DNA from: Chondrosia reniformis | Taxonomy: Eukaryota; Porifera; Demospongiae; Chondrillida; Chondrillidae | Assembly: GCA_947172415.1 (NCBI GenBank) | Contig: OX359200.1 | Span: forward strand, 1,118,501 to 1,182,500 | Direction: 5' to 3' | DNA: 64,000 nucleotides | Shown: piece by piece, positions 24,766 to 64,000 of the stretch | How positions within the stretch are numbered: position 1 is the first letter of the stretch | Layout: each line of letters opens with the position of its first letter | Program-made: the position numbers and the translations under genes | The notes under the pieces: model-generated | Seen by the model: only the letters and a program-made list of their open reading frames with translations | Told to the model about the DNA's origin: nothing | Database searches by the model: none

Positions 24766-30664
<5,899 letters not shown>

Positions 30665-40801: not shown

Positions 40802-41488
40802 ATGCTGCCTTACATCACCAATTGGATCTGGGGCTCTCCTTCCGATAATTCTGGTTCCACTGAAGAAGGCGTTCTTCCACAAGGCGCTACTAAAGCCTTC
40901 AAATCGATGGCGAGCGAAGAAGAATGGGTTTTTATCGAACAAACAGACAAGGGTGAGTAGGAAATTTATCATCCGACTGGGTTTCACTTTCCTCGCTTCT
41001 AATTTGTAGATTTGCCTCACACAGAAACTCTCCAGTCTCTCAGCAGTGGACACAGTTCGGATGGAGATGATTCTTGGGTGGTTGCTCCGCCTGCCTGCCT
41101 CACTAGGAAGGATTCTCTAAGCGAAATGGGTTCCCTTGAGAACCTCTTGATAGAGCACCCAAGTATGTCGGTGTACCGCGGGAGGACAGAAGACGCGGAG
41201 AGCGGAAAGGGGGAAGACCTTGTGCTTGAGAGACGGTGTCTTCTCGAGGGTCGCCAGACTCCCAGACCCTCCGAACTCACTAAAGTGACACCAAGTCACA
41301 GATCAGTGATTTCAAAGGGTAAGTCTACTAAAAGAAATTTCATTTCTTCAAGCAACAAGCAAAGGGAAGTTCGTCCCAAGATACCCAAATTGAGCAGAAA
41401 GGCTCTTAATCGTCATAACGCACATTCAGCCAGGCAGATTCCGCCCAACAGAAGACAATTCCGTCTCTTTCAACCCAAGAATCATTAA
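40802..41488 (+). CDS. TP53INP: TP53INP1/TP53INP2 (DOR) homologue
   Basis: Small regulator of autophagy and transcription; family members bind ATG8/LC3 proteins through an acidic LIR and shuttle to the nucleus. Exon 1 40802-40952 (MLPYITNWIWGS ... SEEEWVFIEQTDK) joins exon 2 41010-41488 in frame. Two family signatures are present: EEEWVFIE, equivalent to the LIR EEWILVD of vertebrate TP53INP1, and SLENLLIEHPSMSVY, nearly identical to the conserved MENLLIEHPSMSVY. A basic C-terminal tail (KLSRKALNRHNA) matches the RRQN-type region. About 209 aa. An internal ggtaagt at 41319 could be a donor, but the frame stays open, so I treat it as exonic. The last 200 bp are duplicated at 56632. Confidence 0.88.
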
Positions 41489-41772
41489 AGAGTTCCTTTC
41501 TTCATAACAGCCATATTATGTCATAGTGTTCTATAAGTCTCTTTTTAAGTTAGTTATTTAACAGCTACCAACTTTTTACAATTACATTTATTTATATATT
41601 AGCTGTAAAGTTTGTGTTGTGTTTGGAAACAAAAGGTTTACAAGTGATCATTCCTGTGCATATAGGTATTGAGTGTGAAATGATGCAATAATGCATGGAA
41701 GGTGACATCACTGGATATCCCAGTGGCATGCCTGAATAGTCTAACACACCATTCACTTTATTCTAATAAGTG

Positions 41773-42710
41773 TCACATGCTACATTCCATATATTGCATC
41801 ATTTTTGACATGAAATATTTTACTTTTATTGGATCAACTGGGTTATACCACGCGCCATTTTTCTTGAAATGTGACCCAATTATGTATGCATTGCCTTCTA
41901 CATACAAGTCCACATTTTCACAAGTAACTCCAGAGCCGAGAACTATAGGCAGCTTGACTGATTCAGAGGCTTTCTTCAAATCTTCTGGATTGACAGCATC
42001 ACCAGTTGATGAACCAGTGATAATTATGCCATCACTGCAGAAGAATTCGGCTGTTTTAGCAGTTTCTGAGATTGTTACATCAGCTGTCACTGCATGTGAA
42101 CTAGAGAGAATGAAAAGAGGACGATACATTAAACAGAAACCTGATCCTAAGTCAAGAAGACTATTTAGAGAGTTTGGATTATGTATCATTTTCACAAGCA
42201 TTAGACAAAGTTACACTTTGTTCTATAAGAGGAACTGGCAATAGACAACTAGGAATGTCTTATAGTAATAGTTTACAAGGTTCAAAGGTCACCATCATGC
42301 ACATTTTAAATAAAATGTTCAGGCAGTCAAGGGTCAGCTCCTATATATAACCACTAAATGTTCCCTTGTTGCTAACTGACAAGTGTTACATTATTGCTAC
42401 TAAACATAGAACAAATTAAAAGTTTTCCAGTAAAACCAAATATTGTGTGAACTTCCACTTAAGTTATGATAATGAATACATGACCAATTCATTATGAAAC
42501 ACCACATATATTACCATTCCTGACACTTCCTTTAATTTGAAAACAGTGTATATAGTCTTCAATTTAGCCACACTCCCTCAATACTTATGGCAAGTCCCTA
42601 CCTGTGTTTCTTCTTGATGTCTGTAAGAATGCCAACCTCCTCTGCTCCAATGCTCCTCCTGTACCTCAGGAGCTCCCCAGCACACGAGTCTGTGCAGCCA
42701 TTAAAAATAG
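41773..42710 (-). CDS. BtpA-family protein, C-terminal exons (copy A)
   Basis: Two exons, 42602-42710 and 41773-42100, join in frame (KKKH then SSHAVTADVT) and read GCTDSCAGELLRYRRSIGA, VGILTDIKKKH, then ETAKTAEFFCSDGIIITG and LPIVLGSGVTCENVDLY and IIGSHFKKNG. This is the BtpA/SgcQ family of TIM-barrel-like proteins, known from cyanobacteria (photosystem I accumulation), archaea, bacteria and some invertebrates (C. elegans F13E9.13); the eukaryotic role is not known. About 145 aa are visible of a usual 260-280 aa. The N-terminal 100 or so residues, with the GMVHL-type start, are not found to the right in this window, so the gene is either missing 5' exons or already a fragment. Confidence 0.7.
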
Positions 42711-44391
42711 CTGTGCTAAAGCCAGGGATGACTGTTGTAATAGGTTCTCTATAGTCCATTAACTATATGATGTTCTAAAACCATATAAGGGTAGCCCATT
42801 ATGAAGTTGTACTAGACAAGGAAATAAAACACATGATAGCTTGTGAGTGTAGCCATACTGTTGGGTTCTTGGTCTATCCTCTTTAGCAACTTCTTCTTGT
42901 TTACCTCTCCCTTTCTCTCTCTCTCTATCCCTCTCCCTCTCCCTCTCCCTCTCCCTATGTACGTATGTGATTGTTTTGAAACTGAATTAGAAATTGCTAA
43001 TCTCTAATGTTAACAATTTCATATTTTATCTTTGGTAACCATAGAAACAAGTGGATCATGCAATGTTTAGAGTAATATTGTTGACTAACTCAAGCTGATT
43101 ATATATATAGATATATTTCATTTACCTACAACTGCCACGTATCCTAAAGCATCCATTTTTGTTAGCCATTTTCTATATATTACTGTATACTTTTTATGTG
43201 GTAGATAGGATTGTGAGATTGGCAAATGATATTGATGTTGTGGCTATATATAAACATTCATTATAACATTGGATGGCCAACAAAACAACATAATGGAAGA
43301 CACACAATTGCGAGTATACCCAGGAGGAATGGATTTGATATCAGTAGGAGCATGCAGATGTAAGTTAACAGCCCCTTTTATGAGATTACATGACTTTAAT
43401 TAACTATATATCTTAGCCCAAATATTGTTATTTCAAGAACAAACATCTCAGCAGCTACTTACACTAGTAGTGGTTTATTTGGCCATATTGCAAGTTAGAA
43501 CATTATCTCTGCTCTTGTATTGAATATATTGCTACATTTGCATCTTGTAATTGATAAATGATAAGATTACATGGTAGGGTTGATAATTTTAAATCAAATT
43601 CCTTCCATCTTATCATATGCTATTTCAGGGACCATGCATGCAATGCATGCAATGTAGATCCCTTATCTAATTGGTTAGCACTAGTCTGATCATGAAGGAC
43701 ACATATATACTCCATGATGATGATGTTATGTTGATTGAGAACTCTTTTCTAATTGTGCATATTTTTAATTGGTCATTTTTAGGGGCTGCCACAGGCAGCC
43801 CCTTATATTGTTTTCATTTGCCGATTACGTTGTATGGCTTCATGTTACGGAAAGATATATATATATATATATATATATCTATATATATAATACGGGTTGA
43901 TACGCAACTATTATAACACTTTATTTATACGTCGATATATATTTAATACAGGTTCATATATACGCAACTATTATAATACTTTATAATACTTAATTTATAC
44001 ATCAATACATCGTTTTGCAAATGGCGGCGTTTAGGAAGCTTTAGTTAACGAAGCTTTTCTGTCGCTATTTATAATGTTCAGGACACTTAAGCGTCCTCAA
44101 TCGTTAGTATTACGAATATATATATTAAATGCCAACGATACGGCCAAGTAGTTCGAGTTAATTCGGGGGGCGGCAGCCCCACGAGTTTTTAAACTCGAAA
44201 TACTTGTTCATTTCCATGTAGCTGTGAGGCTCTAGTGTGATCAGCAAATAATAATAATAATAGTAATAGTATATGACCACCCAATGTTAGTGAATGTACA
44301 AAGTGTTTATATATAGCCATAACATCATTTTGGGAAAATACACAGGTAATTTTAATTGATATGGTCAAATTTAGAACTATTTTAAATTTAG
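42711..44391. other. AT-rich region, possible first exon, no confirmed gene
   Basis: Holds a CT-rich stretch (about 42910-42955) and the insertion at 43782. An exon-like segment at 43291-43360 (MEDTQLRVYPGGMDLISVGA followed by a gtaagtt donor) could belong to the gene starting at 44392, but its phase does not join directly, so an intermediate exon would be needed. In copy B that segment has lost 8-9 bases. Confidence 0.35.
43782..44206. mobile_element. About 400-425-bp insertion with GGGGCTGCC inverted ends, copy A only
   Basis: Present in block A1, absent at the matching site in B1 (about 59118). It starts with 'ggggctgccacaggcagccc', itself a hairpin, and near the right side has 'cggcagcccc' (to about 44180), the inverse of the left end. 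A further 'acgagtttttaaactcg' palindrome sits before the flank resumes at 'ttcatttccatgta'. Contains a (TA)n run. No protein coding. The exact right border and target-site duplication are uncertain. Confidence 0.65.
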
Positions 44392-45595
44392 AACTATGGA
44401 AACATTTAATGGATTTCACCCAGGATAATGACGTTACATGTTACAGAAAATATGCATGCAACATCAGTAAATTGCATGTAAGTGTATGCACATCATGTCT
44501 GTAGCTATTGTTTGAAGATATATTTGTTGTCATTTGATACATAATATCAGAATGACAGTGAGTTAGCTTGCTACCTGCTCCTTAACTATATTTAATTTCT
44601 AGCAAGAATTGATATACATACATATATACTGTATATAGCTTCTATTGCAAACTTCCAATTAAGACTGACGCGCTCAGATCAGTAAAAATACTTCAAAATA
44701 TTTGTACCTATATCAGTATGAAATATATGAGTTACATCTAGGTCTATATCAATTGACATTCTGCCTAAAATGCATATTCCATTTATTGCAAAATTGTGTT
44801 AAGGAGTGCAATTTTTCCTGAAAGATGCAGCTATAATCACTAAATCATCTGCAGACAGTAGTAGTAATAGTAGTAGTGTTTCTCACTAATTAGTTATAAG
44901 GATAAGAGAAGTGAGATGACAATCGCTTTGAAGAATTTTACATAATGCTTTCTAATTTTAGAGTAATTTTACAACTGCACATGTATATGTAGGAAATAGA
45001 GGGTTTAAGAGACTTTCAGAAGATTTTAGAGTAGTTGGTTGACAGAAAGAATCATAAAGATGGATTAGAAGACAAACTAAAAGACCGTTCTGATATTCAT
45101 GCAGTTATACAAGCTTTAATTGTTATATGTAGATACATGCATGTACCGGTATATTAGGGATAATTTATAGCATACATATACACGTAGCACCTATACATGG
45201 ATGATAAACTTTTAAACACAACTTCCTTGTATAGTGGATTTGAGTAAAATGAAGTCAAGACATAATTTAGAATGGAAAAGTCTGATTGCATGGTCAACAG
45301 AAAGAGAAATACTCCCAGTTGGACTCCTTAGCCAAAGCAATAGAATTTTGTGGTGAGCATGGTATAGCCTCATCATGATACATACATGCATACATATAAT
45401 CTGGCAATTGCTTATTTCATTTTTCTCTCTTTAGGATGTTTGAAAATTACTTGTGGTTTGATTATATCTGACTATTCATATATTAACCTACAATATTATA
45501 CATTATGTTTGTTGTATTCACCAATGTATAGGGTGGAAAGAGCTGCTCACAGTGCCTTGGCCAACGTGTCCAGCAGGCACTGTGCAAGAGTTTAA
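44392..45595 (+). pseudogene. Unrecognised helical-protein gene, copy A (in-frame stop)
   Basis: Four exon-like segments correspond to copy B at 59486: 44392-44477, 44993-45128, 45235-45352 and 45532-45595. Splice borders are kept, but the second has TAG at 45032-45034 where copy B has CAG (Gln), and the third has a 4-base gain and a 7-base loss, so about 25 residues are read in another frame. The final exon is open (VERAAHSALANV ... HCARV-stop). Probably decayed, unless an alternative start downstream is used. The product is not recognised. Confidence 0.6.
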
Positions 45596-45899
45596 AGCAT
45601 TTTACACTTACACAACTTGTCACAAGAATATTAATATATTCATAGATAATCATGTTACAATATTGTAAGAGTCATTCAAATGTCAAATAAGACAGTAACT
45701 GTCAAATGAATAACTTCAAGGAAACAAACTCCATATGCCATATACATAGACACAATTTGCATTTCACAAAATAGCTCAAGACACAGCAGCTCCATTATCC
45801 TACAGAATGAAAATACATGAAATATAATGATGCAATTAGATGTTTCATAACTTGAATAACACTTAACTCGAGAAAAATAGCTTGAAACTGGTCATGTAC
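45596..45899. other. AT-rich 3' flank, nothing recognised
   Basis: Noncoding sequence after copy A of the helical-protein gene, nearly identical to 60722-61025. No features beyond short AT repeats. Confidence 0.5.
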
Positions 45900-46479
45900 T
45901 TTTCTCAGCACAACTCAAGTAGAGCTGCCCCAGGGCACACCACGAGGAGGTGAAAGTACATCGTGCCCCACCCCACAGCGTTGACACTAACTATTGTGTA
46001 ACAGAAGCTGTAACTGCGCAGTAATCTGCACTCATGGAGTTACTAGCCATGACATAGGAATCGATCAGCGTTAGCCTCACTTTCAGCCTATGCCAAGTCC
46101 GACCCTCCCGAACCGCAAACTGCCCCGATGAGAATCAGTGTGTTGCCACACCTTTAACTCCTCAGGATCGGATGACTTCCTTGAAGTGGGGACTGGCGAA
46201 ACAACTGCCCAAATCAGGTGTCGACAACCGACTTCAACTTACATAGTTACGCGATTACCTCAATCTCCGTGCCGTCAGACCCCAGCCGAAGCCAGAGCTA
46301 GTGAGGACCAATCCCAAGCACCAACCCTCCCACTGAGTTCCTGATCAAATTGCATATCCAACATGACACCAGGCCGCATTCTCAGCTCGCTGGCGGAGCC
46401 GAGGGGAATCCTGGGTCTACTTGTCTAGCGCTTCGAACAGGACTACTCGGGATAAGGAAAGACCACCGTCAGGCACAGA
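45900..46479. other. GC-rich conserved block of unknown nature, copy A
   Basis: About 580 bp at roughly 50% GC inside AT-rich surroundings. By eye only two differences from copy B (61026-61604). Possible stem gggcac (45933-45938) with gtgccc (45963-45968). On the minus strand 'cctgttcgaagcg' resembles a pol III B-box. Small open frames (46138-46344 and another near 46370) end quickly and match nothing I know. I found no match to rRNA, 7SL, U1 or U2 sequences. Confidence 0.5.
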
Positions 46480-47561
46480 AACTTTAGCAATCACACGCGT
46501 CAAGTAAGCCACTGGGGGTAAACTGAGATTTTTCACACCTCGCCATCTTTTATATGGCCGCATTCCATTTTTCCCGCGCAAAATTCTTATTAGGTAATGA
46601 TGGTCACGTGTTATGATGACGTCAGCCTTAATTCTAGTTTCTTGACTCGCACCACTTTCGTAATAGATACAAAATGGCTGACGAAGTGTTAACCGTCATA
46701 ATTTAAGAGAGGCGCAGGAACGATATTCATCGCAGTAACTGGTGAATTTGATAACGTTACCAATTTGTGATGCATAAAGGAGTCGTCAGTCGAATCTCTC
46801 CGAAGCTTTTTTTAATCTCGCGCCAACCAGCAGTTAAACGTTAATAAATCTGTAAAACGATTAGAGCGAAGAAGTATAGGTTTATGAAGTGTGAATTCAA
46901 AATTGTCAACCCTAATTCACGAATACGGTATTTTAAATTAACTTACATCTTACATTTAGTCTGTGTAATTTGTATTCACCCGCTTAACATTAAGCAGCAC
47001 ATCCTTTACAGTCTCCATTACTTCAATTTGTAAAAAATCACTAATCTATAAAATCTACTAAATTAAAAGTCGCGTAAGAGTGATACAAAGCTGCATTTAA
47101 AATCCTGTACTAGAATACTAGACAGATCAAACTGCAGGTCATTCCATCCTAGGCCTGGATGGGTAGACAAACAACAGTGTACTCATCAGTCACTTGCACT
47201 TGTTCCAGACAGAACCAAGACTGAATACCTTCCTGCAGATCATCACACACCACCTCTGAGATTTGATATTTGTTGGAACAAGTGCCATCCCTACTTGTTG
47301 AATCATTTTTGAAATGTTTTTATTTAACTTTGTACTAATGTCTGCACACATTTCCCATTAATAAGCTTACAACTATTTTCAACTGAGTTAAAGAATACAA
47401 ATTGGTATATACAATGTCATATATACCTATCACACCACACTATACCTATCAAAGAAATGTTTGACAACACTCCAGCAATTCTAGCTGTATAGTGCCCTAT
47501 AGTAGCAGTCTACAAAAGTATATAACCTAAATAGTCCTTATTTGTTATAGCTACTGTTTTC
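46480..47561. other. Intergenic sequence without recognised gene
   Basis: AT-rich with one GC-richer patch at 46480-46720 that may be a promoter (the gene it would serve is unclear). A small inverted repeat, 'cacttgttcca' at 47207 and 'tggaacaagtg' at about 47273, encloses about 60 bp. This stretch has no partner in the duplicated copy. Confidence 0.5.
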
Positions 47562-49759
47562 CTATTTTCTAGGTTGTGAGTCCCTCAATATTTTCTTGCA
47601 TGCTCGGATTGCAAGAGCCACGGCAGTGAGTGTTGGGTTACATGCAGTGCCTGTTGGGATGACTCCACAAGATCCAATGTAGAGATTGTCATATCCCCAT
47701 ACTTTACTGTAGGTGTCTACCACACTTTCACCATCATTCTTTTCACCCATGCGAGTAGTTCCCTGGGTGAATTAGAGAATAAGACACTAAGTTGTGGTAG
47801 AAATTAGCATGCAATTTACATGTGTGAATAACTTGTGATATTAAATTTGAGCTGTAAGATTATAGCCGATATTATGTATACGTATGTAGCCAAAAATTAG
47901 GCAGGAACAGGGACTTTGATATATATTATGTATAGATTTATATGATTCATAAACAAGGTTGTGTAATCCATTTAAATATGGTATCACCTATGGGTCCAAT
48001 CTAAATAAACAGGTGGTCTTGAAAATTTGGGCCCACAAGTGGTCCTAATAGAGAGGTGGTCTTAAGCATATGCATGGCCATGGGTTTCACTGTATGTAGT
48101 GCAAGGTGTTCAATTCTAATGCAAACACAATCTGGTATAAACCCTTAAAATCTTAGTGAGACAGACAGTTAAATAGCAGCTGCAGCTATTCAGACTTTGA
48201 GTCATTTTCAGCTGTTTCTTGTACAGTTTTATATTGAAAGGGCAGAAATTTGTACACTTTGTACAAGAAATAGCTGAAAATGACCCAAATTCTGAATAGC
48301 TGCTATTTAAGTTTATACCAAATTGTGTTTACATGAAATTGTTACAGGAACATGTTAATAATAACATATTCTAAAAAACAATGCCTGAAGGTTGCATAGT
48401 GAAATGGTCTAAAATGTTTCCTAAAAAGATGTCCTATATGATAATGTCCTTACTGTAATATGGAGAGATAATCCTGGTTCCATGAATGATGGTTCAGACC
48501 CAGGAAGGAAGCCTCCAAGAGGAGCAGCGCACTTCAGCATGTCCTCCAGCATTTCGTGCTGGCGTTCAGTATCCTTTTTGGTCATCTCAAAGTTGAAGGT
48601 AGGTTGTGGCATGCCAAATGCATCAGTATACTTATCACTGAATGTAACACAATTCTCCTTCTTGGGTTCAATCCTCCCAAACCAGCGGAGGTCCACAATC
48701 AGTCGGTTGTCAACATTTGGAGTAACTCCTCCGTAGCTAAATGCATCACAATGGACTTGACAGTGCCATGGTCTTCCTTCAGATACAGGAATCCAGCACT
48801 ATGAAGTATGGCAGGTAGGTATATATTGCCAAGGAGAATCATATTAGTGGAATAGTGTTAGCTGATCATGAATGGCTGGATATATATAATACACAACACT
48901 GCTAGGTCACTAAGTTAAGTTTATGAATATGTACATATACGTACATCACATCTATACAGACATTGACAAATAACACATGCATGCAAGTTGCATACCTGAG
49001 GTGGCGGATCATCTATTGGGATAGGAATAGGATCATCAGGGTTTAAAGCTAGTTTCATCCTTTTTACACGTTTCTCTATGTCGTCCACAATTGATTGCAG
49101 AAGTACTATTTGACAGAAAGTCATTGGTTGCTCACAGAGATATTGCCCTAGGACAGGGGGACGGATGCCAGAGTTGAACAAGATTTGTGGAGTCAGCACA
49201 ACACCTGCTGCCAGAACATATGTTTTGGCTTTGATGACCAAAACCTCATTTTCCATTAGGTTCTGGACTTTGGCACCAATGATTGTACCTGGCTCACTCA
49301 CTAGTTTGATACATCGCCATTGAGGCTAAAAGGAAAGAGAATAATAAGTGCCAGCTTTGAGATCATGCAATTATGACAAGGTAAAATTTTCAATGATTAA
49401 CCTTCAATAGAAACCGCTTCTGTGTGGGATCATCTAGCATCTTTAGCAGCTCCTCACCCAAAATCACATCTGTACTACTCCAGTAGACAAATTCCTTGCA
49501 GTGTTGGTTAAGCTCTGCAGCTAGGGGCAGGTTGTTTGTCTCGTAACCCTCAGGTAGATTAGGATAGGTTTCCTTCAGTATTTTTCTTATGACTTTATTT
49601 CGAATAGAATTATCAAAGAGGTTACTATTGACCTTAAGAAGCTCCTCAGCTTCATTATAGAGCTTATCCCATTTAATGGTTTCCTCAGTTGGGTTATAAC
49701 GCTCAATTTCAGGATGTTGTCTGGGTGTAGCACATGTCCAGTGTACACCCATCCCTCCA
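47562..49759 (-). CDS. Pyranose 2-oxidase-like GMC flavoenzyme, C-terminal exons (copy A)
   Basis: GMC oxidoreductases use FAD to oxidise alcohols or sugars; pyranose 2-oxidase oxidises C2 of aldopyranoses and makes H2O2. Four exons join in frame: 49402-49759, about 48995-49326, 48454-48798 and 47562-47762. Reading order: [96 protein letters not shown], then GTTRMG and [21 protein letters not shown]. The HWT motif matches the histidine that binds FAD covalently in fungal pyranose oxidase, and LSLH and ACNPTLT supply the active-site His/Asn pair. The upstream exons with the FAD-binding GxGxxG are not found before 51.1 kb or later, so the gene is 5'-incomplete here. About 410 aa seen of roughly 600. 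Confidence 0.8.
48123..48330. mobile_element. Long fold-back (MITE-like) element in the oxidase intron
   Basis: Two arms of roughly 90 nt face each other: 'aaacacaatctggtataaac' on the left with 'gtttataccaaattgtgttt' on the right, and further in 'gtcattttcagctgtttctt' with 'caagaaatagctgaaaatga'. The loop is about 30 nt. Noncoding, within the intron 47763-48453. Confidence 0.8.
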
Positions 49760-50252
49760 CTGCAATAAGAGGCAGTGCTAGCTCTAAGTAGGGATGGCCA
49801 AAAAACATGTATACAAGAGAGATTGCTAGTGACATATATACACTGTGCAAATTTGTATTATGATTATAAATTAACCAATCAATAATTGTTTCAAATATTA
49901 TAAATATATGTATAACTATAATAAAAGATTGTTTTTGATTACAGTGCCTAGTTTATATACAGAAACCACACTGATAGCTGAAGTAGGATGACAATTATCT
50001 ACAGTGAGGGATATACGTATTTGGTTATATGAAATAATCACTATATACGTATATATAATTAATTTACAGCTGTTCATGCAATTAAGAGACGGCCTAATTT
50101 CAATTATTATAATAAACTTTGTAACACCTCTGACCTTTGCTTAATAATCCTGTCTATAAAAGCTCTGACTTGCTCCACATGTATTATGTGTAATTTCAGT
50201 TTCTTAATCCATAACTGTGCAGTCTAAAGAATCTAAGAACTACCATTCAGTG
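49760..50252. other. AT-rich spacer between oxidase exons and secreted-protein gene
   Basis: No coding signal. It is also duplicated (63241-63735). It should contain the promoter of the plus-strand gene at 50253 and either intron or upstream sequence of the oxidase. Confidence 0.5.
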
Positions 50253-51125
50253 ATGAGATTATCTATTAGTATAATAATCTTACTGCTAGTGCACTTTCAA
50301 GTGAGTTAAGTTAATAATATATAAACTGTATACCTATGAGCTATGTGTATACATATATATATATGTATGTTGGTAGATCTTTTATCCTGTAGTAACCTTC
50401 TTAAGTGTAAATATAATGTAAAAAGTTACGTATATATGCCAAAAATCGAATTTAAGACTTGTTTCTCTATATTGAATAATATGTAGGCTGTCTTTGGTGT
50501 GACACACTTACAAGACTGCTCTTGTGAATGCCCACGATTACTCTACACAAAAGTAATGGACCCAGATTGGTTGCTGGACCATGCCTCAGTCACTGGACTC
50601 ATAAATACTTCAAGTACCTTGCTTCACTTCAGAAATCCTCAGGCCAGCAAGAGATTGATTCGCATTCCACTCTTTCAAAAAGATGAGCTTTGCACAGATG
50701 ACATAGCTGTAAAAATAAAGCTATATTTTCAAGATCCACCAACTCGTGACTCAGATCCTATTATCATGCTGTGCGATAAAACCACCTGCAATGGTAACCT
50801 GATTGCAGATATCAACAATGTTGGTGTAGCCTGCTACTTCGTAAGCCTAACGCCTGGGAATACTTTCACTGGCACTCTTGGTGGTACCTGTGGGGGTCTT
50901 ACACAAAAAAGTAGTATTTCACCGAAAAAGGTCATTGTTACTCTTAGGCCTAAACAGCAATGGGGCTCTTTCCATCTTACGAAAGGTGGAGGCTTCACAG
51001 CTGCAGCTACTTTTACAACCAAATTGGATGTTAAGCAAGGCCTTTTTGTAGAGCTTTATGGCCCCGATGTAGAAGAGGAATATAAGTTGGAGTACATGGA
51101 AGTGGAGGTCACTAGGAATGACTAA
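50253..51125 (+). CDS. Secreted protein of unknown family (copy A)
   Basis: Two exons: 50253-50300 (MRLSISIIILLLVHFQ) and 50487-51125, joined in frame at phase 0, giving 228 aa. The first 20 residues are a clear signal peptide ending near AVFG. The mature part has a cysteine cluster at its start (CSCECP) and three more pairs (ELCTDD, LCDKTTCNG, GVACY, GGTCGG), a Gly/Thr-rich middle and an acidic end (GPDVEEEYKLEY). Alternating hydrophobic/polar residues suggest a beta-rich fold. No transmembrane segment after the signal. I do not recognise the family; extracellular function is inferred only from the signal and cysteines. The 5' part is duplicated at 63736. Confidence 0.75.
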
Positions 51126-53676: not shown

Positions 53677-53883
53677 ATGTACAGTGTTGAAGTGGTGATG
53701 AGAATTGGCAAGAGCAGTGCTGGAGAAACAACAAAGCAAACAACTAATATAGAAGTAATGAATTCCACTTTTGTACCCACTCTAAGATATGGCTGCAAAT
53801 TGTGGTGTTTATCAAAACAACAGGAATCGAGAGTGCAAGCCATACATTTGAATGTATTGAGGAAAATTGAAGGAGTACGTAAG
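53677..53883 (+). mobile_element. LINE reverse-transcriptase C-terminal remnant
   Basis: A 69-codon open stretch reads PTLRYGCKLWCLSKQQESRV followed by QAIHLNVLRKIEG. That is the typical end of non-LTR retrotransposon reverse transcriptases (VLPTLLYGSETW, then LEAFEMRCLRRI). No other part of the element is visible nearby. Dead fragment. Confidence 0.7.
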
Positions 53884-54816
53884 TAGCTTTGATACAGTAA
53901 GAAATGGGTTAGTCAGGTAGACACTGGGCAAGGAAGGTGTCCTTGATATTGTCATTGATATTTCAAATAGAAGATGGATTGATAATTTCAAATATTGGTC
54001 ATTTACTCTTTAGTTATATTATTTCTCTATTTTAGTATAGGTTTTTTCTTTTATACTTAAGGATGACCTTCAATATTGGAGACATACATCCATGGTAATT
54101 ATGATGATGCATGATGAATGAATGACAAATAGGTGAACTTTCAGTTAGTGTGGTTACTATGACTTCAGATACACTACCACAATGAGGACATAGCACCTTT
54201 GAATGGCACGTTTATTGACTCATTCAGCAACCTCAGAAGTCATTAGTCAAACAAATTAGTAAAGTAAGTTATTTATAGTAAGTTATATATTCATTTAATG
54301 AAACCATTAAAGCCAATTTGAAAGGTATTTAGTATAATCTTTTGCAAATTATTTTAATCATATCATATTGTGTTATTGTATATGCTATATTATATATGCA
54401 ATCACACAATATGAACTATGTATCTTCTGTCTGTGTGAATGTACTAAAGTGACATTGTGGAAAGTCATTAGGTTGTCATTTAAACAAAAAAGAAGATTTA
54501 TTTTAAAGAGTCCTAATAAAACTCAAGTGTATAAAACAAACTGTAACCTCCAAATCAAATAGAGATTCTGAAGGGTTAGGTAGCAATGCTGTGGCCGGGA
54601 TAAGGATGAGAGTTTTTATAGCGTTTGCCTCCCATAATCGAGAATGAAGAGGAAACACCAAAGAACTGATCATGAGTGAAAGAAGACGAAGAGCATGGCT
54701 TGGCATAATTTGAAGGAAGGACTTGAATGGGAGCCTATCAAATGTTTGAGTCTGTTCACACCATTTTATCAAATAAATACCTTCTGCTCTCTATGAATCT
54801 AAGGATCCTGATTAGG
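53884..54816. repeat. Repeat-derived intergenic sequence
   Basis: Contains another module Q copy (about 54125-54330) and AT-rich filler. No gene seen; a weak open frame on the minus strand (54503-54772) has no recognisable motif. Confidence 0.5.
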
Positions 54817-55017
54817 TGTCTTCAGTCAAACTGGACCACAGGGAGACGAAGACCATAAGTGACACCCCAAGACTCGATAGGTCACTTGCACAGGAATCTA
54901 AGAGAAGAAAGGTGGAGGCTGAGGCAGTTAGTGAAGATGGAAGCAGTTTAATGTCAAGGGAATTGTCTGAGGTAGAGTTACAAAGTAAAGGTCTTCTCTG
55001 GTGGATGAAAAAACCAA
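54817..55017 (+). other. Isolated exon-like open segment
   Basis: A charged open stretch (KLDHRETKTISDTPRLDRSL, KRRKVEAEAVSEDG, LLWWMKKPS) is bounded by acceptor-like 'ttag/gtgtcttcag' and donor 'gtacgtac'. KRRKVEAE could be a nuclear localisation signal. No partner exons found. It may be a true exon of an unannotated gene or a decayed fragment. Confidence 0.3.
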
Positions 55018-56629
55018 GTACGTACATGCCTAAATGTATGTACATAAGAGCGAACCACAGATTCACATTATCTTTCCGCTCCGTCATTCGCTTCTCTAGC
55101 TCAAAAAAAGTAATTGTTTACAACTTATGTCTATCAGCATAAGTTTGCATGTAGCAGTAGGTGTATGTTACAGTTGAATTTATGTACAGACACTGAGTTC
55201 TCAAGTAGTGTATATTCACTTGAATGCTTTGATTCTGATGGACTCCTTGTAAGGTAGCCACTCCGGACTGAATTCATGGAACTTTATATAATGGTGGCTA
55301 AAAATTCAGCACTCCTTGGTCCAATTCCCATAGACTGTTTTTTCTTTTCTTTCACTTTGAAATGACTTTTAATGTTTTATGATGAGGCAGTTGTGATTTG
55401 GAGATCATATCACTATATACTAAATATTCTTCCCTAAAATAATGGGTGTAATATATATCTCTGCATGGAGGTTTAAAACTTGATAATACTTATATATTAT
55501 TTTTTCACATGAGAACGACACTAACTGGAGTTTTAAATAAGTAAACTAAACTTCTCAGTAGCCATTATTCTGCACATCCGTGGTATATATATAAATGTGC
55601 AGAGGTTAGGTGTTGAGGAGAATATACAAGCAGAGTAATTGAGAAAGGGGCATGTGTGTGGGTGTGTGGATGTGTGGGAGGGGTGACAAGCCATTTTGTA
55701 TATCTGTCTACAATATATAATATAAATGAGTGTGGAGTGGTGTGTCAGTTATATACTATTGGGAAATAAATTTGTATGCAGGATTCACCAGGAGTCCCAT
55801 ATCTTGTCACATGCACAGATGATGAAGTAGTGAACTTTCAGTTAGTATGGTTACTATGACTTCAAATACACTACCACAAGGTGGACATAGCACCTTAGAA
55901 TGGCACGTTTATTGGCTCATTCAGCAACCTCAGAAGTCATTGGTCAAACTAAATAGTAAAGTTAGTTATATATAGTAACTTATATATTCATTTAATGAAG
56001 GCATTTATATGCATCACTGTCAAAGTTGTTTAGTAATCATTTTAAACGTATCATATTGTTTTTCGTGCTATATTATATACATACACATTTGCACAATATG
56101 GACTATGTTCTATCTCTGTAAATGTACTAAAGTGACACTGTAGATAGTCATTGGGTTGTCATTTTACTACAAATTAATTGCTAATATTTCTATCCTTTAG
56201 GTTATAGAAGCAAAGTAAGGAGAAATATGGTATAGAGGAGAGAGTGTCTATCTACTTGAAGTATGTACCACTTTTTCAACCTTGAAGCTGAAAGTTTCTC
56301 AGATTTGCAATTGCTTCTTACATGTATAGACTGTAAGTTTACTATAGCAATTGTCAATGTACTGTACATCACTTCAGTAGGGACCCTGATGTATTTCTGG
56401 CATACCCAAGAGTTATTTGTAGGAGATGGAACCAAAAGCATTCATTAAATCTAACATGGTAACCGCTACTGACCTCTTCTTTATTCTAACTTGATCTAGT
56501 ATGGCATCGAGGCATTAATTATGCTTCATTGCATATTCACATAATGCAGAAACCCCTTTTGGATAGCTATATTAGCTAGCCATTATGTCACTGAGGTTTT
56601 GAGCATAAAAAAACATGTTTACTTAAACT
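55018..56629. repeat. Decayed repeat modules, second set
   Basis: Module P near 55240-55430 and a module Q copy at about 55625-56165 that is nearly identical to 52430-52960 (about 530 bp, few differences), so a recent duplication. No gene seen. Confidence 0.65.
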
Positions 56630-56631
56630 GT

Positions 56632-56868
56632 GACACAAAGTCACAGATCAGTGATTTCAAAGGGAATTCTAAGTCAAGTCAAGGAAACTTCTGATCATTT
56701 CTTCAAGCAACAAGAATTAAAAGAGAAGTTCGTCTAAAGATACCCAAATTGAGCAGAAAGGCTCTTAATCATCATAACACACATTCAGCCGGGCACATTC
56801 AGCCGGGCAGATTCCGCCCAACAGAAGACAATTCCGTCTCTTTCAACATACCCAAGAATCATTAATGA
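56632..56868 (+). pseudogene. TP53INP 3' exon fragment
   Basis: Matches the last 200 bp of 41284-41488 (shared 'gtcacagatcagtgatttca', 'aagatacccaaattgagcag', 'gattccgcccaacagaagac'). It has no 5' exon, and an in-frame insertion repeats 'cattcagccgggca' twice. Not coding. Confidence 0.85.
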
Positions 56869-57176
56869 GTTTCTTTTTTCAACACCCACATATATTACAT
56901 ATGACATACAGTGTTCTATAATTCTATTTTTAAGTTTAATACCAATTTTTACCAGTACATTTTTTATAGCTGTAAAATTTGTGTTGTGTTTGGAAACAAA
57001 AGGTTTACAAGTGATCATTCCTGTGCATATAGGTATTGAGTGTGAAATGATGCAATAATGCATTGTAAGATGACATCACTGGATATCCCAGTGGCATGCA
57101 TGAATAATCCAACACATCATTTTAACTTTGTACTTTTAAATTATTCTAATCAATGTTACATTCTACATTCCTTTAA

Positions 57177-57486
57177 TCAGTGCATCATTTTTGACATGAA
57201 ATCTTTGACTTTTATTGGGTCAACTGGGTTATACCACACGCCATTTTTCTTGAAATGTGACCCAATAATTAAAGCATTGGCTTCTGCATACAAGTCCACA
57301 TTTTCACAAGTAACTCCAGAGCCGAGAACTATAGGCAGCTTGACTGATTCAGAGGCTTTCTTCAAATCTTCTGGATTGACAGCATCACCAGTTGATGAAC
57401 CAGTGATAATTATACCATCACTGCAGAAGAATTCGGCTGTTTTAGCAGTTTCTGAGATTGTTATATCAGCTGTCACTGCATGTGAA
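57177..57486 (-). pseudogene. BtpA-family exon, copy B (upstream exon lost)
   Basis: The last exon remains open (SSHAVTADITISETAKTAEF to FMSKMMH-stop) and differs from copy A at a few residues. The upstream exon present at 42602-42710 in copy A is missing here: at about 58041 'acttatggcactaaaaatag' joins across it. So copy B cannot make the same protein. Confidence 0.75.
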
Positions 57487-57639
57487 CTAGAGGGATTGAA
57501 AAGAGGACGATACATTAAACAGAAACCTGATCCTAAGTCAAGAAGACTATTTAGAGAGTTTGGATTATGTATCATTTTCACAAGCATTAGACAAAGTTAC
57601 ACTTTGTTCTATAAGAGGAACTGGCAATAGACAACTAAG

Positions 57640-57757
57640 AATATACAAAACTACAAGAAAGATACAGTCCTGTTGTATAATACAACACTGGACATCACAG
57701 GATAATTATCTTTCTTGTAGTTTTAGTGATGTCCAGTGTTGTATTATACAACTAATT
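57640..57757. repeat. Insertion with interleaved inverted repeats, copy B only
   Basis: Order a-b-a'-b': 'aaaactacaagaaagata', 'tataatacaacactggacat', then 'tatctttcttgtagtttt', 'atgtccagtgttgtattata'. Absent from copy A at about 42250. Confidence 0.85.
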
Positions 57758-59170
57758 GTAATAGTCAAAGGTTCAAAGGTCAAGGGATCAGGTCCTATAG
57801 CCAGCACTAATATAAATGTCCCCTTGTTGCTAACTGACAAGTGTTACATTATTGCTACTAAACATAGAACAAATTAAAAGTTTTCCAGTAAACCAAATAT
57901 TGTGTGAACTTCCAACTAAGTTATGATGATGAATACATGACCAATGCATTATGAAACACCACATATATTATTAGCTAATTCCCATTTCTGACACTTCCTT
58001 TGAAAACAGTGTATAGTCTTCAATTTAGCCACAAGCTCTATACTTATGGCACTAAAAATAGCTGTGCTAAAGCCAGGGATGACTGTTGTAATAGGTTCTC
58101 TATAGTCCATTAACTATATGATGTTCTAAAACCATATAAGGGTGGCACATTATGAAGTTGTACTAGACAAGGAAATAAAACACATGATAGCTTGTGAGTG
58201 TAGCCATACTGTTGGGTTCTTGGTCTATCCTCTTTAGCAACTTCTTGTTGTCTAACCCTCCATCTCCCTCTCCCTCTCTCTCTCCCTCTCACAGTACCCT
58301 ATGTACGTATGTGATTGTTTTGAAACTGAATTAGAAATTGCTAACCTCTAAAGTTAACAGTTTTGTATTTTATCTTTGGTAACCATAGAAACAAGTAGAT
58401 CATGCAATGTTTAGAGTAATATTGTTGACTAACTCAAGCTGACATTGAATAGCACTACATTTCATTTACCTACAACTGCCACGTACCCTATATATAAAGC
58501 ATCCATTTTTGTTAGCCATTTTCTATATATTACTGTATACATATGGTAGATATGATTGTGAGATTGGCAAAGTGATATTGATGTTGTGGCTATATATAAA
58601 CATTCATTATAACATTGGATGGCCAACAAAACAGCATAATGGAAGACACACAATTGTAGGAGGAATGGATTTGATAATAGAAGGAGCATGCAGATGTAAG
58701 TTAACCCCTTTTATGACTGTAGGAGATTACATGACTATATATCTTAGCCCGAATATTGTTATTTCAAGAACAAACATCTCAGCAGCTATTTACACTAATA
58801 GTGGGTGAATTTGGCCATATTGCAAGTTAGAATATTATCTCTACTCTTGTATTGAATATATTGCTACATTTGCATCTTGTAATTGATAAATGATAAGATT
58901 ACATGGTAGGGTTGATAATTTTAAAACAAATTCCTTCCATCTTATCATGTGCTATTTCAGGGACCATGCCCACAATGCATGCAATGTATATAGATCTCTT
59001 ATCTAATTGGTTAGCACTATAGTCTGATCATGAAGGACACATATATGCTCCATGATGATGATGTTATGTTGATTGAGAACTCTTTTCTAATTGTGCATAT
59101 TTTTAATTGGTCATTTTTCATTTCCATGTATAGTGCTACATGGAGCTGTGAGGCTCTAGTGTGATCAGCA
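57758..59170. other. Noncoding flank of copy B
   Basis: Collinear with copy A 42260-44245 minus the BtpA exon and the 43782 insertion. The possible first exon seen at 43291 in copy A is interrupted here (58639-58697). Nothing else recognised. Confidence 0.45.
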
Positions 59171-59370
<200 letters not shown>

Positions 59371-59485
59371 ATGGCCACCCAATGTTAGTGAATGTACAAA
59401 GTGTTTATATATAGCCATAACATCATTTTGGGAAAATACACAGGTAATTTTGATATGGTAAAATTTAGAACTATTTTAAATTTAG

Positions 59486-60721
59486 AACTATGGAAACATT
59501 TAATGGATTTTACCCAGGATAATGACATTACATGTTACAGAAAATATGCATGCAACATCAGTAAATTGCATGTAAGTGTATGCACATCATGTCTGTAGCT
59601 ATTGTTTGAATATATATTTGTTGTCATTTGATACATAATATCAGAATGACATTGACATTAGCTTGTTACCTGCTCCTTGGGCATGACTATATTTAATTTC
59701 TAGTAAGAATTGATACACATATGTATATACTGTATAGCTTCTATTGCAAACTTCCAATTAAGACTGATGCTCATGACCAGTAAAAATACTTCAAAATATT
59801 TGTACCTATATCAGTATGAAATATATGAGTTACATCTAGGTCTATATCAATTGACATTTTGTTATGCCTAAAATGTATATTCCATTTAGTGCAAAATTGT
59901 GTTAAGGAGTGCAATTTTTCCTGAAAGATGCAGCTATAATCACTAAATCATCTGCAGACAGTAGTAGGCTATCAAATTTTATCAGAGATAAATTTTTCTC
60001 ATTAATTAGTTATAAGGATAAAAAAGAAGTGAGATGACAATCGCTTTGAAGAATTTTACGTAATGCTTTCTTTTTATAATTTTAGAGTAATTTTACAACT
60101 GCACATGTATATGTAGGAAATAGAGGGTTTAAGAGACTTTCAGAAGATTTTAGAGCAGTTGGTTGACAGAAAGAATCATAAAGATGGATTAGAAGACAAA
60201 CTAAAAGACCGTTCTGATATTCATGCAGTTATACAAGCTTTAATTGCTATATGTAGATACATGCATGTACCGGTATATTAGGGATAATTTATAGCATCCA
60301 TATTTAAATACACGTAGCACCCATACATGGATGATAAACTTTTAAACACAACTTCCTTGTATAGTGGATTTGAGTGAAATGAAGTCAAGACATAATTTAG
60401 AATGGAAAGGTCTGATTGGTCAGCAGAGAGAGAAATGCTCCCAGTTGGACTCCTTAGCCAAAGCAGTAGAAGAGAAGGTTTTATGGTGAGCATGGTATAG
60501 CCTCATCATGTTACATACGTACGTATATATAATCTGGTTATTTCATTTATCTCTCTTTAGGATTTTTGAAAATTACTTGTGGTTTGATTATCTCTGACTA
60601 TTCATATATTAACCTACAATATTATACATTATGTTTGTTGTATTCACCAATGTATAGGGTGGATACAGCTGCTCGCAGTGCCTTGGCCAACTTATCCAGA
60701 AAGCACTGTGCAAGAGTTTAA
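59486..60721 (+). CDS. Unrecognised helical (coiled-coil-like) protein, C-terminal exons, copy B
   Basis: Four exons with good borders join in frame: 59486-59571, 60117-60252, 60365-60485 and 60658-60721 (TAA). The three junctions have phases 0, 1 and 2 and all keep the frame open, which is strong support for a real gene. Product about 135 aa so far: LWKHLMDFTQDNDITCYRKY, then EIEGLRDFQKILEQLVDRKN, then DLSEMKSRHNLEWKGLIGQQ, then SQLDSLAKAVEEKVLW and SALANLSRKHCARV-stop. Rich in Lys, Glu, Leu and Asp with heptad-like spacing, so mostly helical. Resemblance to BAR/F-BAR type helical bundles is possible but too weak to assign. 5' exons not found. Copy A carries a stop. Confidence 0.5.
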
Positions 60722-61025
60722 AGGATTCTACACTAATGCAACTTGTCACAAGAATATTAATGTCTTCATAGATAATCATGTTACAATATTGTAAGAGTCA
60801 TTCAAATGTCAAATAAGACAGTAACTGTCAAATGAACAACTTCAAGGAAACAAACTTCATATGCCATATACATAGACACAATTTGCATTTCACAAAATAG
60901 CTCAAGACACAGCAGCTCCATTATCCTACAGAATGAAAATACATGAAATATAATGATGCAATTAGATGTTTCATAACTTGAATAACACTTAACTCGAGAA
61001 AAATAGCTTGAAACTGGTCATGTAC
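60722..61025. other. AT-rich 3' flank of copy B, nothing recognised
   Basis: Matches 45596-45899. No coding or RNA signal. Confidence 0.5.
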
Positions 61026-61604
61026 TTTTCTCAGCACAACTCAAGTAGAGCTGCCCAGGGCACACCACGAGGAGGTGAAAGTACATCGTGCCCCACCCCA
61101 CAGCGTTGACACTAACTATTGTGTAACAGAAGCTGTAACTGCGCAGTAATCTGCACTCATGGAGTTACTAGCCATGACATAGGAATCGATCAGCGTTAGC
61201 CTCACTTTCAGCCTATGCCAAGTCCGACCCTCCCGAACCGCAAACTGCCCCGATGAGAATCAGTGTGTTGCCACACCTTTAACTCCTCAGGATCGGATGA
61301 CGTCCTTGAAGTGGGGACTGGCGAAACAACTGCCCAAATCAGGTGTCGACAACCGACTTCAACTTACATAGTTACGCGATTACCTCAATCTCCGTGCCGT
61401 CAGACCCCAGCCGAAGCCAGAGCTAGTGAGGACCAATCCCAAGCACCAACCCTCCCACTGAGTTCCTGATCAAATTGCATATCCAACATGACACCAGGCC
61501 GCATTCTCAGCTCGCTGGCGGAGCCGAGGGGAATCCTGGGTCTACTTGTCTAGCGCTTCGAACAGGACTACTCGGGATAAGGAAAGACCACCGTCAGGCA
61601 CAGA
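61026..61604. other. GC-rich conserved block, copy B
   Basis: Same sequence as 45900-46479 with one single-base deletion ('gctgcccaggg' against 'gctgccccaggg') and one substitution (gatgacgtcc against gatgacttcc) noticed. Its right end is the breakpoint of block B1. Confidence 0.5.
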
Positions 61605-62654
61605 TTGATTGAAACACAAATATACACTGTTGATAGGCTGACAGAACAATCTGTTTTGAAGTAGTCTATGTTCACTATCTGATAGACTCATTGTAAATAG
61701 CCATCTCCTGACATGAATGCATGGAGCTTCATTATGAAATAGTGACTAAGTTAGCTGTCCGTAGTTTGATTCCCATTGATTGTCCTTTCTGGTTTAATAA
61801 TGAATTTTAACGATAAAGCAGTTGTGGTTTGGCGCATAGAGAGGTTTATATATAGTTGTATGTTATTTCATATGAGGACCAGACAGTTTTTAACTTTTCA
61901 ACAGTTATTTTGCGGACTACATGAGATAGCCATCTCCTGACTAATTCCGTGGAGATTCACTTAGTGATGAAATGGTGGGTAAAATGTCAGTTGTCATGTA
62001 TTCTTTCTGCTTTTAATAAGTTTTTTTTGATAAAGCACTTGTGATTTGGATAACACATCACTACTTAATATAAATGGGTGTGGAGAGGTGTGTCAGTTAT
62101 CTACAGTTGGGAAATATATTATGGAATTATGAGTTTACCAGGAGTATCTTGTAAAACTGGTGGTGAGGTAGTGAACTTTCAGTTGGTATGGTTACTATGA
62201 CTTCAGATACACTACCACAAGGAGGACATAGCACCTTTGAATGGCAAGATTATTAGCTCTTTCAGCAACCTCAGAAGTCATTAGTCAAACTAATTAGTAT
62301 AGGCATTTCTATGTATTACTAGAGAACAATAAAAATTTTCTACAAAAATAGTGAAGATGTAGGGATGGCACAAAAAGCACAGAAACAAGAAAGGGATGTT
62401 ACACAGTGAAGTATTAGCTATATATGCATGAATCATACAACACCCTTGCTTGTAGGATTCATGCATAGCTAATGAAAATCGCTCTCGCTTCTACAGCTCG
62501 GACAATTTGCAATAGTTTCGTTTAACATTTAGTCCAAAAGCTTATATAGTTTTTTAGTTATATATGGATGGCAAAGAAGAAGAAGAAGAAGAATATGAAG
62601 AAGACGAAAATGGGAATTTTTAAAGTTTATTATTTTGCCAGCGGGACATATCCG
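61605..62654. repeat. Duplicated block B2 (partner 51272-52316)
   Basis: Near-identical, same strand; begins 'tgattgaaacacaaatatac' and ends 'cagcgggacatatccg'. Non-coding, includes modules P and Q. Confidence 0.92.
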
Positions 62655-63240
62655 TTGAACAAGATTTGTGGAGTCAGCACAGCACCTGCTGTCAGAACAT
62701 ATGTTTTTGCTTTGATGACCAAAACCTCATTTTCCATTAGGTTCTGGACTTTGGCACCAATGATTGTACCTGGCTCACTCACTAGTTTGATACATTGCCA
62801 TTGAGGCTAAAAGGAAAGAGAATAATAAGTGCCAGCTTTGAGATCATGTAATTATGACAAGGTAAAATTTTCAATGATTAACCTTCAATAGAAACCGCTT
62901 CTGTGTGGGATCATCTAGCATCTTTAGCAGCTCCTCACCCAAAATCACATCTGTACTACTCCAGTAGACAAATTCCTTGCAGTGTTGGTTAAGCTCTGCA
63001 GCAGGTTGTTTGTCTCGTAACCCTCAGGTAGATTAGGATAGGTTTCCTTCAGTATTTTTCTTATGACTTTATTTCGAATATAGAATCATCAAAGAGGTTA
63101 CTATTGACCTTAAGAAGCTCCTCAGCTTCATTATAGAGCTTATCCCATTTAATGGTTTCCTCAGTTGGGTTATAACGCTCAATTTCAGGATGTTGTCTGG
63201 GTGTAGCACATGTCCAGTGTACACCCATCCCTCCAATGCA
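62655..63240 (-). pseudogene. Pyranose-oxidase-like exons, copy B (decayed)
   Basis: Corresponds to 49174-49759. The middle exon is cut at 62655 by the duplication join. In the upstream exon a 7-base loss near 63001 and a 2-base gain near 63080 shift the frame, and the splice acceptor 'ttgcag/tgg' of copy A reads 'ttgcattgg' here, so the AG is lost. The peptide [13 protein letters not shown] is still readable. Confidence 0.85.
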
Positions 63241-63735
63241 ATAAGAGGCAGTGCTAGCTCTAAGTAGGGATGGCCAAAAACATGTATACAAGAGAGATTG
63301 CTAGTGACATATATACACTGTGCAAATTTGTATTATGATTATAAATTAACCAATCAATAATTGTTTCAAATATTATAAATATATGACATTGTATAACTAT
63401 AATAAAAGATTGTTTTTGATTACAGTGCCTAGTTTATATACAGAAACCACACTGATAGCTGAAGTAGGATGACAATTATCTACAGTGAGGGATATACGTA
63501 TTTGGTTATATGAAATAATCACTATATACGTATATATATAATTAATTTACAGCTGTTCATGCAATTAAGAGACGGCCTAATTTCAATTATTATAATAAAC
63601 TTTGTAACACCTCTGACCTTTGCTTAATAATCCTGTCTATAAAAGCTCTGATTTGCTCCACATGTATTAGGGGTAATTTCAGTTTCTTAATCCATAACTG
63701 TGCAGTCTAAAGAATCTAAGAACTACCATTCAGTG
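63241..63735. other. AT-rich spacer, copy of 49760-50252
   Basis: Near-identical to the copy A spacer apart from small indels; should hold the promoter of the gene at 63736. Confidence 0.5.
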
Positions 63736-64000
63736 ATGAGATTATCTATTAGTATAATAATCTTACTGCTAGTGCACTTTCAAGTGAGTTAAGTTAATAA
63801 TATATAAACTGTATACCTATGAGCTATGTGTATACATATATATATGTATGTTGGTAGATCTTTTATCCTGTAGTAACCTTCTTAAGTGTAAATATAATGT
63901 AAAAAGTTACGTATATATGCCAAAAATAGAATTTAAGACTTGTTTCTCTATATTGAATAATATGTAGGCTGTCTTTGGTGTGACACACTTACAAGACTGC
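63736..64000 (+). CDS. Secreted protein of unknown family (copy B, cut by right edge)
   Basis: Exon 1 63736-63783 is identical in encoded sequence to copy A (MRLSISIIILLLVHFQ, donor gtgagt). Exon 2 starts at 63968 (AVFGVTHLQDC) and runs off the window. Signal peptide and splice sites are intact, so this may be a second functional gene; most of it is not visible. Confidence 0.65.

Follow-up and report, generated by a model that had tools for sequence, protein, structure and literature searches.

The window analyzed here is a 64,000-nucleotide stretch of chromosome 12 of the sponge Chondrosia reniformis (C12:1118501-1182500), and its right-hand part holds the beginning of a tandem array. Positions beyond 64000 are given on the same scale. 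We used BLAST to compare 184 kb with itself, namely the window together with the 40 kb before it and the 80 kb after it. All non-overlapping repeats of at least 800 bp at E 1e-50 in this sequence (14 pairs, including one within a satellite) fall within 41.3-87.3 kb, and the array is therefore a distinct local feature. It spans ~46 kb and contains four partial units (U1-U4) arranged as in a tandem segmental duplication, with adjacent copies on the same strand of one chromosome. Judging from the assembled sequence, the array is very probably real, built locally, and the product of two layers of duplication.

The first unit, U1 (41285..56183, plus strand), serves as the reference and divides into blocks a (41285-43268), b (43269-46479), c (46480-49172), d (49173-51271), e (51272-52316), f (to 54746), and g (to 56183). 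From self-BLAST and substitution counts, U2 occupies 56184..64000 on the plus strand and continues to 71556. It consists of h (56184-56629), a' (56630-57642), b' (58050-61604), and then an insert. With slashes for junctions, the chromosomal order through U1 and U2 is a b c d e f g / h a' b' / e / d e / d e f; after U2 come b'' c'' d'' (to 49782), the 5' exons of a pyranose 2-oxidase (P2Ox) gene and, further on, a junction to h a'''. The templated insert of ~9.95 kb (61605-71554) interrupts one unit. Within U2, a 3.15-kb module made of blocks d and e (49173..52316 in U1, plus strand) is tandemly repeated. The first repeat is truncated on its left and retains block e alone (61606..62657, plus strand), the second runs from 62654 through the window edge at 64000 to 65807 on the same strand, and the next module begins at 65804.

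Within the window, an initial annotation had described three blocks of U1 (A1, A3, and A2) as recurring on the same strand, and self-BLAST recovered all of them with agreement to a few bases. A1 aligns in five same-strand pieces: 41285-42256 with 56630-57642 (87.6% identity), 42355-42592 with 57813-58051 (88.0%), 42699-43780 with 58050-59118 (91.0%), 44215-44268 with 59139-59192 (96.3%), and 44247-46479 with 59345-61604 (94.3%). A2 pairs 51272-52320 with 61606-62657 (98.8%) and A3 pairs 49173-50519 with 62654-64000 (97.7%), again on the same strand. Five of the seven aligned pieces have E = 0 and the two short ones 1e-73 and 4e-18, so chance matching is excluded. Divergence between these copies is uneven, with 7.0% substitutions at the left of A1 and 1.7% at its right end; A2 and A3 differ by 0.4-1.2% outside a 189-aa open reading frame (ORF). 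Some of the differences are small indels, as described, but the A1 stretches 42257-42354, 42593-42698, and 43781-44214 (98, 106, and 434 bp) have no aligned counterpart in the window copy.

The sequence to the right of the window revises this picture further. The end given for A3, 50519, corresponds to the window edge and not to the end of a block, as the match continues to 52320 / 65807. The piece 46480-49172 is indeed missing from the copy in the window but is present at 75153-77845, 11 kb beyond it. That block c copy matches U1 at 97.6-100% identity per 500-bp step with gaps ignored, and at 1.35% substitutions overall. Nor are the blocks permuted: what lies there are tandem 3.15-kb modules, the first truncated on the left and the remainder cut by the window edge, and they appear as A1-A2-A3 because no more than the insert's left portion falls within the window. 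A block order cut by a window edge can thus mimic permutation. A recent rearranging duplication, as first proposed, survives in outline, but it is just one of at least two duplication layers. A simple two-copy duplication with shuffled blocks was also considered and is ruled out by the sequence beyond 64000.

The joins in U2 carry almost no homology. J1 (61604..61606) links reference position 46479 to 51272 with one extra base and no overlap, J2 (62654) links 52316 to 49173 with a 1-bp overlap, and J4 (71555) links 54746 to 43269 with a 2-bp overlap. J2 occurs twice, at 62654 and 65804, with all 66 compared letters identical, giving overlaps of -1, 1, 1, and 2 bp over all joins and -1, 1, and 2 bp over the three distinct ones. 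None of these three lies within long homology, the signature sought for nonallelic homologous recombination (NAHR). U2 does show the pattern sought for microhomology-mediated break-induced replication (MMBIR) or fork stalling and template switching (FoSTeS), with little or no homology at the joins and an insert whose template lies close by.

To compare the copies, we counted substitutions over aligned columns, with M2 and M3 denoting the full modules in U2 and e0 the truncated first one. Block a gives 67/954 for U1-U2, 104/961 for U1-U4, and 69/992 for U2-U4, and 42699-43268 gives 38/558 for U1-U2. Along block b, U1-U2 and U1-U3 stand at 33/497 and 27/497 in b1, at 49/1193 each in b2, and at 17/979 and 14/979 in b3, with U2-U3 at 8/500, 8/1239, and 3/979. 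Block c yields 36/2665 for U1-U3. In d1, U1 differs from M2, M3, and U3 by 7/603, 7/610, and 18/610, while the other pairs are M2-M3 2/603, M2-U3 17/603, and M3-U3 17/610. In d2 (49783-50555) the counts are 5/770 (U1-M2), 3/771 (U1-M3), and 4/770 (M2-M3). Block e distances are star-like: U1 differs from e0, M2, and M3 by 5/1046, 11/1046, and 10/1042, e0 from M2 and M3 by 8/1052 and 8/1048, and M2 from M3 by 14/1051. Finally, U1-M3 gives 9/1807 in f1 and 6/612 in f2.

These counts change partner at J1. To its left (b1-b3), U2-U3 divergence is 19/2718 (0.70%) versus 99/2669 (3.7%) for U1-U2 (p = 7e-15). To its right, U2 differs from U1 by 28/4232 (0.66%) in d2, e, f1, and f2 of module M3, a count that leaves out the ORF, 51123-51271, and d1. 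U2's nearest neighbor is therefore U3 on the left and U1 on the right, and the two young halves are equal in divergence (p = 0.88). The substitution counts show two layers, an older duplication with 4-7% divergence in a and b1-b2 (U1 versus U2 or U3) and a younger burst at 0.66-0.70%. Divergence in the older layer reaches 11% for U1-U4.

We propose that an older tandem duplication would have produced U1 plus what we call the right-hand unit (h a' b' c' P2Ox). A single burst would then have placed the ~9.95 kb at 61605-71554 into the right-hand unit, copied from U1 d-e-f as e/de/def, and would have duplicated a ~3.2-kb target (43269-46479) on either side of the insert. The second, identical e-to-d join may be the product of a homologous step. 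The equal halves and the star-like distances in block e agree with a single-event origin of the joins without proving it. Because the joins overlap by 0-2 bp, we lean slightly toward template switching (MMBIR/FoSTeS-like) or microhomology end joining, and not homologous crossover, as their source.

Several observations weigh against this history. It is judged on one haplotype of assembled sequence, and homologous unequal crossover with separate deletions gives an identical final map. Further, older steps would have to account for the h-a joins and for the position of the P2Ox segment between two block a copies. In d1, where all three copies can be compared, the nearest-neighbor switch is borderline (M3-U1 7/610 versus M3-U3 17/610, p = 0.06). 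In addition, U1-U3 divergence drops from 5.4% to 1.4% along b1-c and then stands at 2.95% in d1. Because it falls to 1.4-3% in b3-d1, gene conversion has probably acted too, and it is able to mimic nearest-neighbor switches. Such partial homogenization of the units weakens fine dating.

A purely homologous mechanism would leave the array and its two layers in place and alter only how the joins arose: NAHR between U1 and the right-hand unit would have created a chimeric middle unit, followed by separate deletions at J1 and J4 and a small tandem duplication at J2. Unequal exchange predicts both the equal halves and the nearest-neighbor switch, dispersed-repeat DNA at 45.9-46.9 kb could have aligned the units, and a scar-free exchange may have occurred inside block c, since lost by U2. 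Unequal crossing-over with replication slippage is also suggested as a mechanism in a sponge genome paper (PMC7385117). However, the three distinct joins each have at most 2 bp of homology, and this route needs four events of similar age in place of one burst and one homologous step, which leaves it possible but doubtful. RNA genes as mediators were rejected, since nothing in 40000-64000 reached the Rfam gathering score and the window contains no tRNA.

The initial annotation had also raised the possibility that the assembler placed two diverged haplotypes in series. According to the genome paper, the assembly comprises 117.37 Mb in 14 chromosomes plus a mitochondrial record, with chromosome 12 at 7.52 Mb, and drew on ~70-fold HiFi data (10.31 Gb in 0.80 million reads; a mean read of 12.9 kb by division), hifiasm, purge_dups, Hi-C, and manual curation that included haplotypic duplication; it has 42 contigs in 14 scaffolds (PMC12181767). 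From the k-mer completeness given there, we computed a high heterozygosity of ~1.0-1.3% per base, and b'-b'' divergence (0.3-1.6%) is within this allelic range. Block a, by contrast, diverges by 7-11% for U1-U2 and U1-U4, far over the allelic estimate. Haplotypes should also give two copies, whereas a search of our own-genome data set (117,379,552 bases, 15 contigs) with A2 returned four full-length matches, all in the array, among the best 40 of 1067 candidates scored. The 184 kb contains zero N, the assembly was purged and curated, and no exact direct repeat in 41000-90000 exceeds 628 bp, against 12.9-kb mean reads; joins that share at most 2 bp also make bridging by read overlaps unlikely. 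Haplotypes in series are thus very improbable and, because of the 628-bp limit and the short overlaps, a false join in the assembled sequence is unlikely as well. Because of the heterozygosity, the young burst could well be polymorphic. Delivery of A2 into the second copy by a mobile element, with the permutation as an apparent result, would fit the dispersed near-palindrome of ~160 bp and the piece related to a C1 cluster that A2 contains, and bases 39-713 of its 1049 have a 90% match at one site on C1. Yet those same four full-length matches, listed among the best 40 of 1067 candidates scored, are confined to the array, and the insert runs from A2 into the remainder of the module via plain joins to U1 sequence; we rejected transposition of A2 as scarcely credible.

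Read as a locally built, layered duplication, this is an ordinary tandem array of a kind already described in sponges, as in the Ephydatia muelleri genome paper, where widespread segmental duplication is named along with tandem duplication, unequal crossing-over, and replication slippage (PMC7385117). As in that account, the locus is a local cluster of genes; unlike there, it holds mostly gene fragments, and its insert is three partial repeats of another unit. A study on corals describes non-syntenic regions in which NAHR drives tandem duplication, and these resemble the array in their recurrent local duplication and hitch-hiking repeats (PMC12314368). The coral work compares haplotypes where we have one assembled sequence, and the joins here lack long homology. 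FoSTeS and MMBIR produce complex template-switch rearrangements. The near-homology-free joins and the templated insert between two target copies, as deduced from sequence alone, are like these, but two of our joins are identical, so a homologous step is needed as well. The locus neatly illustrates, in layers, the growth of a gene cluster in a sponge. Its main consequence is for annotation, where the P2Ox and BtpA pieces in the window are fragments whose fuller copies lie beyond the right edge; beyond that, the duplication carries little weight.

The genes at the array's boundaries are fuller at the outer edges and truncated inside. On the left, a TP53INP/DOR-family gene (40802..41488, plus strand) is represented by two exon frames, which match Pfam DOR (PF14839) at E 1.2e-13 when joined. 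Within the array, it continues upstream of 41285 in U1 only, and the other block a copies begin inside its last exon frame. A minus-strand last-exon frame of a BtpA gene lies at 41797..42078 in U1 (PF03437, profile positions 158-253 of 254), with a truncated copy, also on the minus strand and matching PF03437, at 57183..57461 in U2. Searching the genome with PF03437, we found this last exon in U1, U2, and U4 and the upstream exons (profile 44-153) in U4 alone (86840-90196), where the gene covers positions 44-253 of 254; positions 1-43 were not found anywhere in this search. Both boundary genes are most complete at the edge where they lie, TP53INP at the left and BtpA in U4, and this is the pattern of a tandem duplication.

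The window also contains a 5'-truncated P2Ox gene on the minus strand (47562..49782; TIGR02462, exon map). Its exons are 49782-49402 (part of exon 2), 49325-48996, 48798-48454, and 47762-47562. Starting within exon 2, it has neither exon 1 nor that exon's FAD-binding GAGPLG motif, and it scores 433.3 bits, under the curated TIGR02462 cut-off of 544.9. The remaining exons have no net gaps relative to the whole gene, which lies on the minus strand at 79276-76221 (C12:1197776-1194721) with five exons and four introns. Once spliced, it encodes 545 aa and scores 578.2 bits, above the cut-off. The genome search recovered a single exon 1, located in U3. The module copies carry only portions of exons 2 and 3, as in module repeat 2 (63258-62883, with a net 5-bp loss, and 62806-62654; minus strand). 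A satellite-like array with ~169-bp spacing (81956-85349) adjoins the whole oxidase gene.

A complete, intron-bearing P2Ox gene is thus present in an animal genome. A contig scan with P2Ox found no relative; a second scan, using a two-row alignment, gave bacterial ones, with a total of 118 relatives and 80 prokaryote loci kept. The closest of these loci are filamentous cyanobacteria, with Oscillatoria princeps at 47%, Okeania at 42%, and the rest at or below 35%, in a search that leans that way through patterns built from an alignment with the Oscillatoria enzyme. Among PDB entries, the Oscillatoria enzyme 9fl2 scores 520 bits versus 394 for the next group, 3bg7 and its kin, which we take to be fungal. 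A literature search combining pyranose oxidase, sponge, and horizontal gene transfer gave no match, and one for pyranose 2-oxidase and animals gave no title about an animal enzyme among the matches listed; neither shows that such work is unpublished. In term searches, the available portion of PMC4784904 does not contain 'pyranose', and that of PMC11650716 contains none of 'phylogen', 'metazoa', or 'sponge'.

Block d contains a 189-aa ORF that has no intron and belongs to no known family (50556..51125, plus strand); it is also intact in the two modules that follow past the window edge (64037-64606 and 67185-67754). At E 10 it matched nothing in Pfam or NCBIfam, its best PDB and PHROG hits were at E 0.3 and 0.32, and it had no relative in viral contigs. 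Genome-wide there are 13 matches. We read six of them: three lie in the array and one each on C1, C2, and C6, the last with two stops. The ORF belongs to a cassette (49972..51290, plus strand) with a paralogue on C1 (~5952473-5953926).

The array copies of the ORF, S1 in U1 and M2 and M3 in the U2 modules, differ at 25/567 (S1-M2), 23/567 (S1-M3), and 35/567 (M2-M3) positions, or 4-6%, while their flanks differ at 22/2568, 20/2572, and 20/2573 (~0.8%). The ORF thus diverges 5-8 times more than the flanks (p 5e-8, 1e-7, and 5e-14). For the same pairs, dN is 0.051, 0.049, and 0.069 and dS is 0.028, 0.016, and 0.048. Nonsynonymous change exceeds the flank rate in all three (p 2.3e-8, 2.8e-8, and 3.6e-13), synonymous change is raised as well in two of the three (p 0.034, 0.28, and 0.0011), and nonsynonymous against synonymous change within the ORF is not significant (p 0.25, 0.077, and 0.27). 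When the C1 paralogue is the comparison, the excess is small, with 37/567 in the ORF, 28/568 in its left flank, and 1/142 in its right flank. With synonymous change also raised and no significant difference between the two classes, positive selection on the ORF is not proven. The ORF shows local excess divergence, and we do not claim selection.

States found in a single array copy are seen versus not seen among the C1, C2, and C6 paralogues at 4 and 14 sites for M2, 8 and 8 for M3, and 5 and 1 for S1, and one site carries three states. Conversion from unsampled paralogues may therefore have contributed to the divergence. We think it rather improbable that the array is the birthplace of a sponge-specific gene, with copy number and protein sequence driven together, for example in recognition or defense; in that case, the fragments of the oxidase and BtpA genes would count as passengers. 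The localized divergence of the ORF is the least ordinary part of the locus and of possible specialist interest.

Other repeats are scattered through the window. The dispersed repeat at 45900..46900 returned 40 long matches (780-1001 of 1001 bases) among the best 40 of 444 candidates scored; those listed are 88-100% identical, lie on many chromosomes, and include the query itself and one array copy. The near-palindromic repeat of ~160 bp lies at 51982..52141 and is also found on many chromosomes, most copies being 94-99% identical. The adjoining piece of block e (51734-51986) recurs many times over ~60 kb at C1:5494330-5554003, apparently another cluster. In U2, a perfect (AAT)66 tract occupies 59171..59369 (plus strand), where U1 has a short run at the same place. 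Outside the array, a 342-bp tandem duplication (11666-12345) lies largely within a 249-aa open frame (11543-12289) that has no Pfam match. A 33-bp minisatellite at 16311-16761 (13.7 copies, 97%) is open in one frame on each strand (plus, 16295-16780; minus, 16284-16784). Finally, a 33/66-bp coding minisatellite (28805-29469), which encodes a repeat given as 13 protein letters (not shown), lies in the minus-strand frame 28531-29859, a 443-aa open frame.

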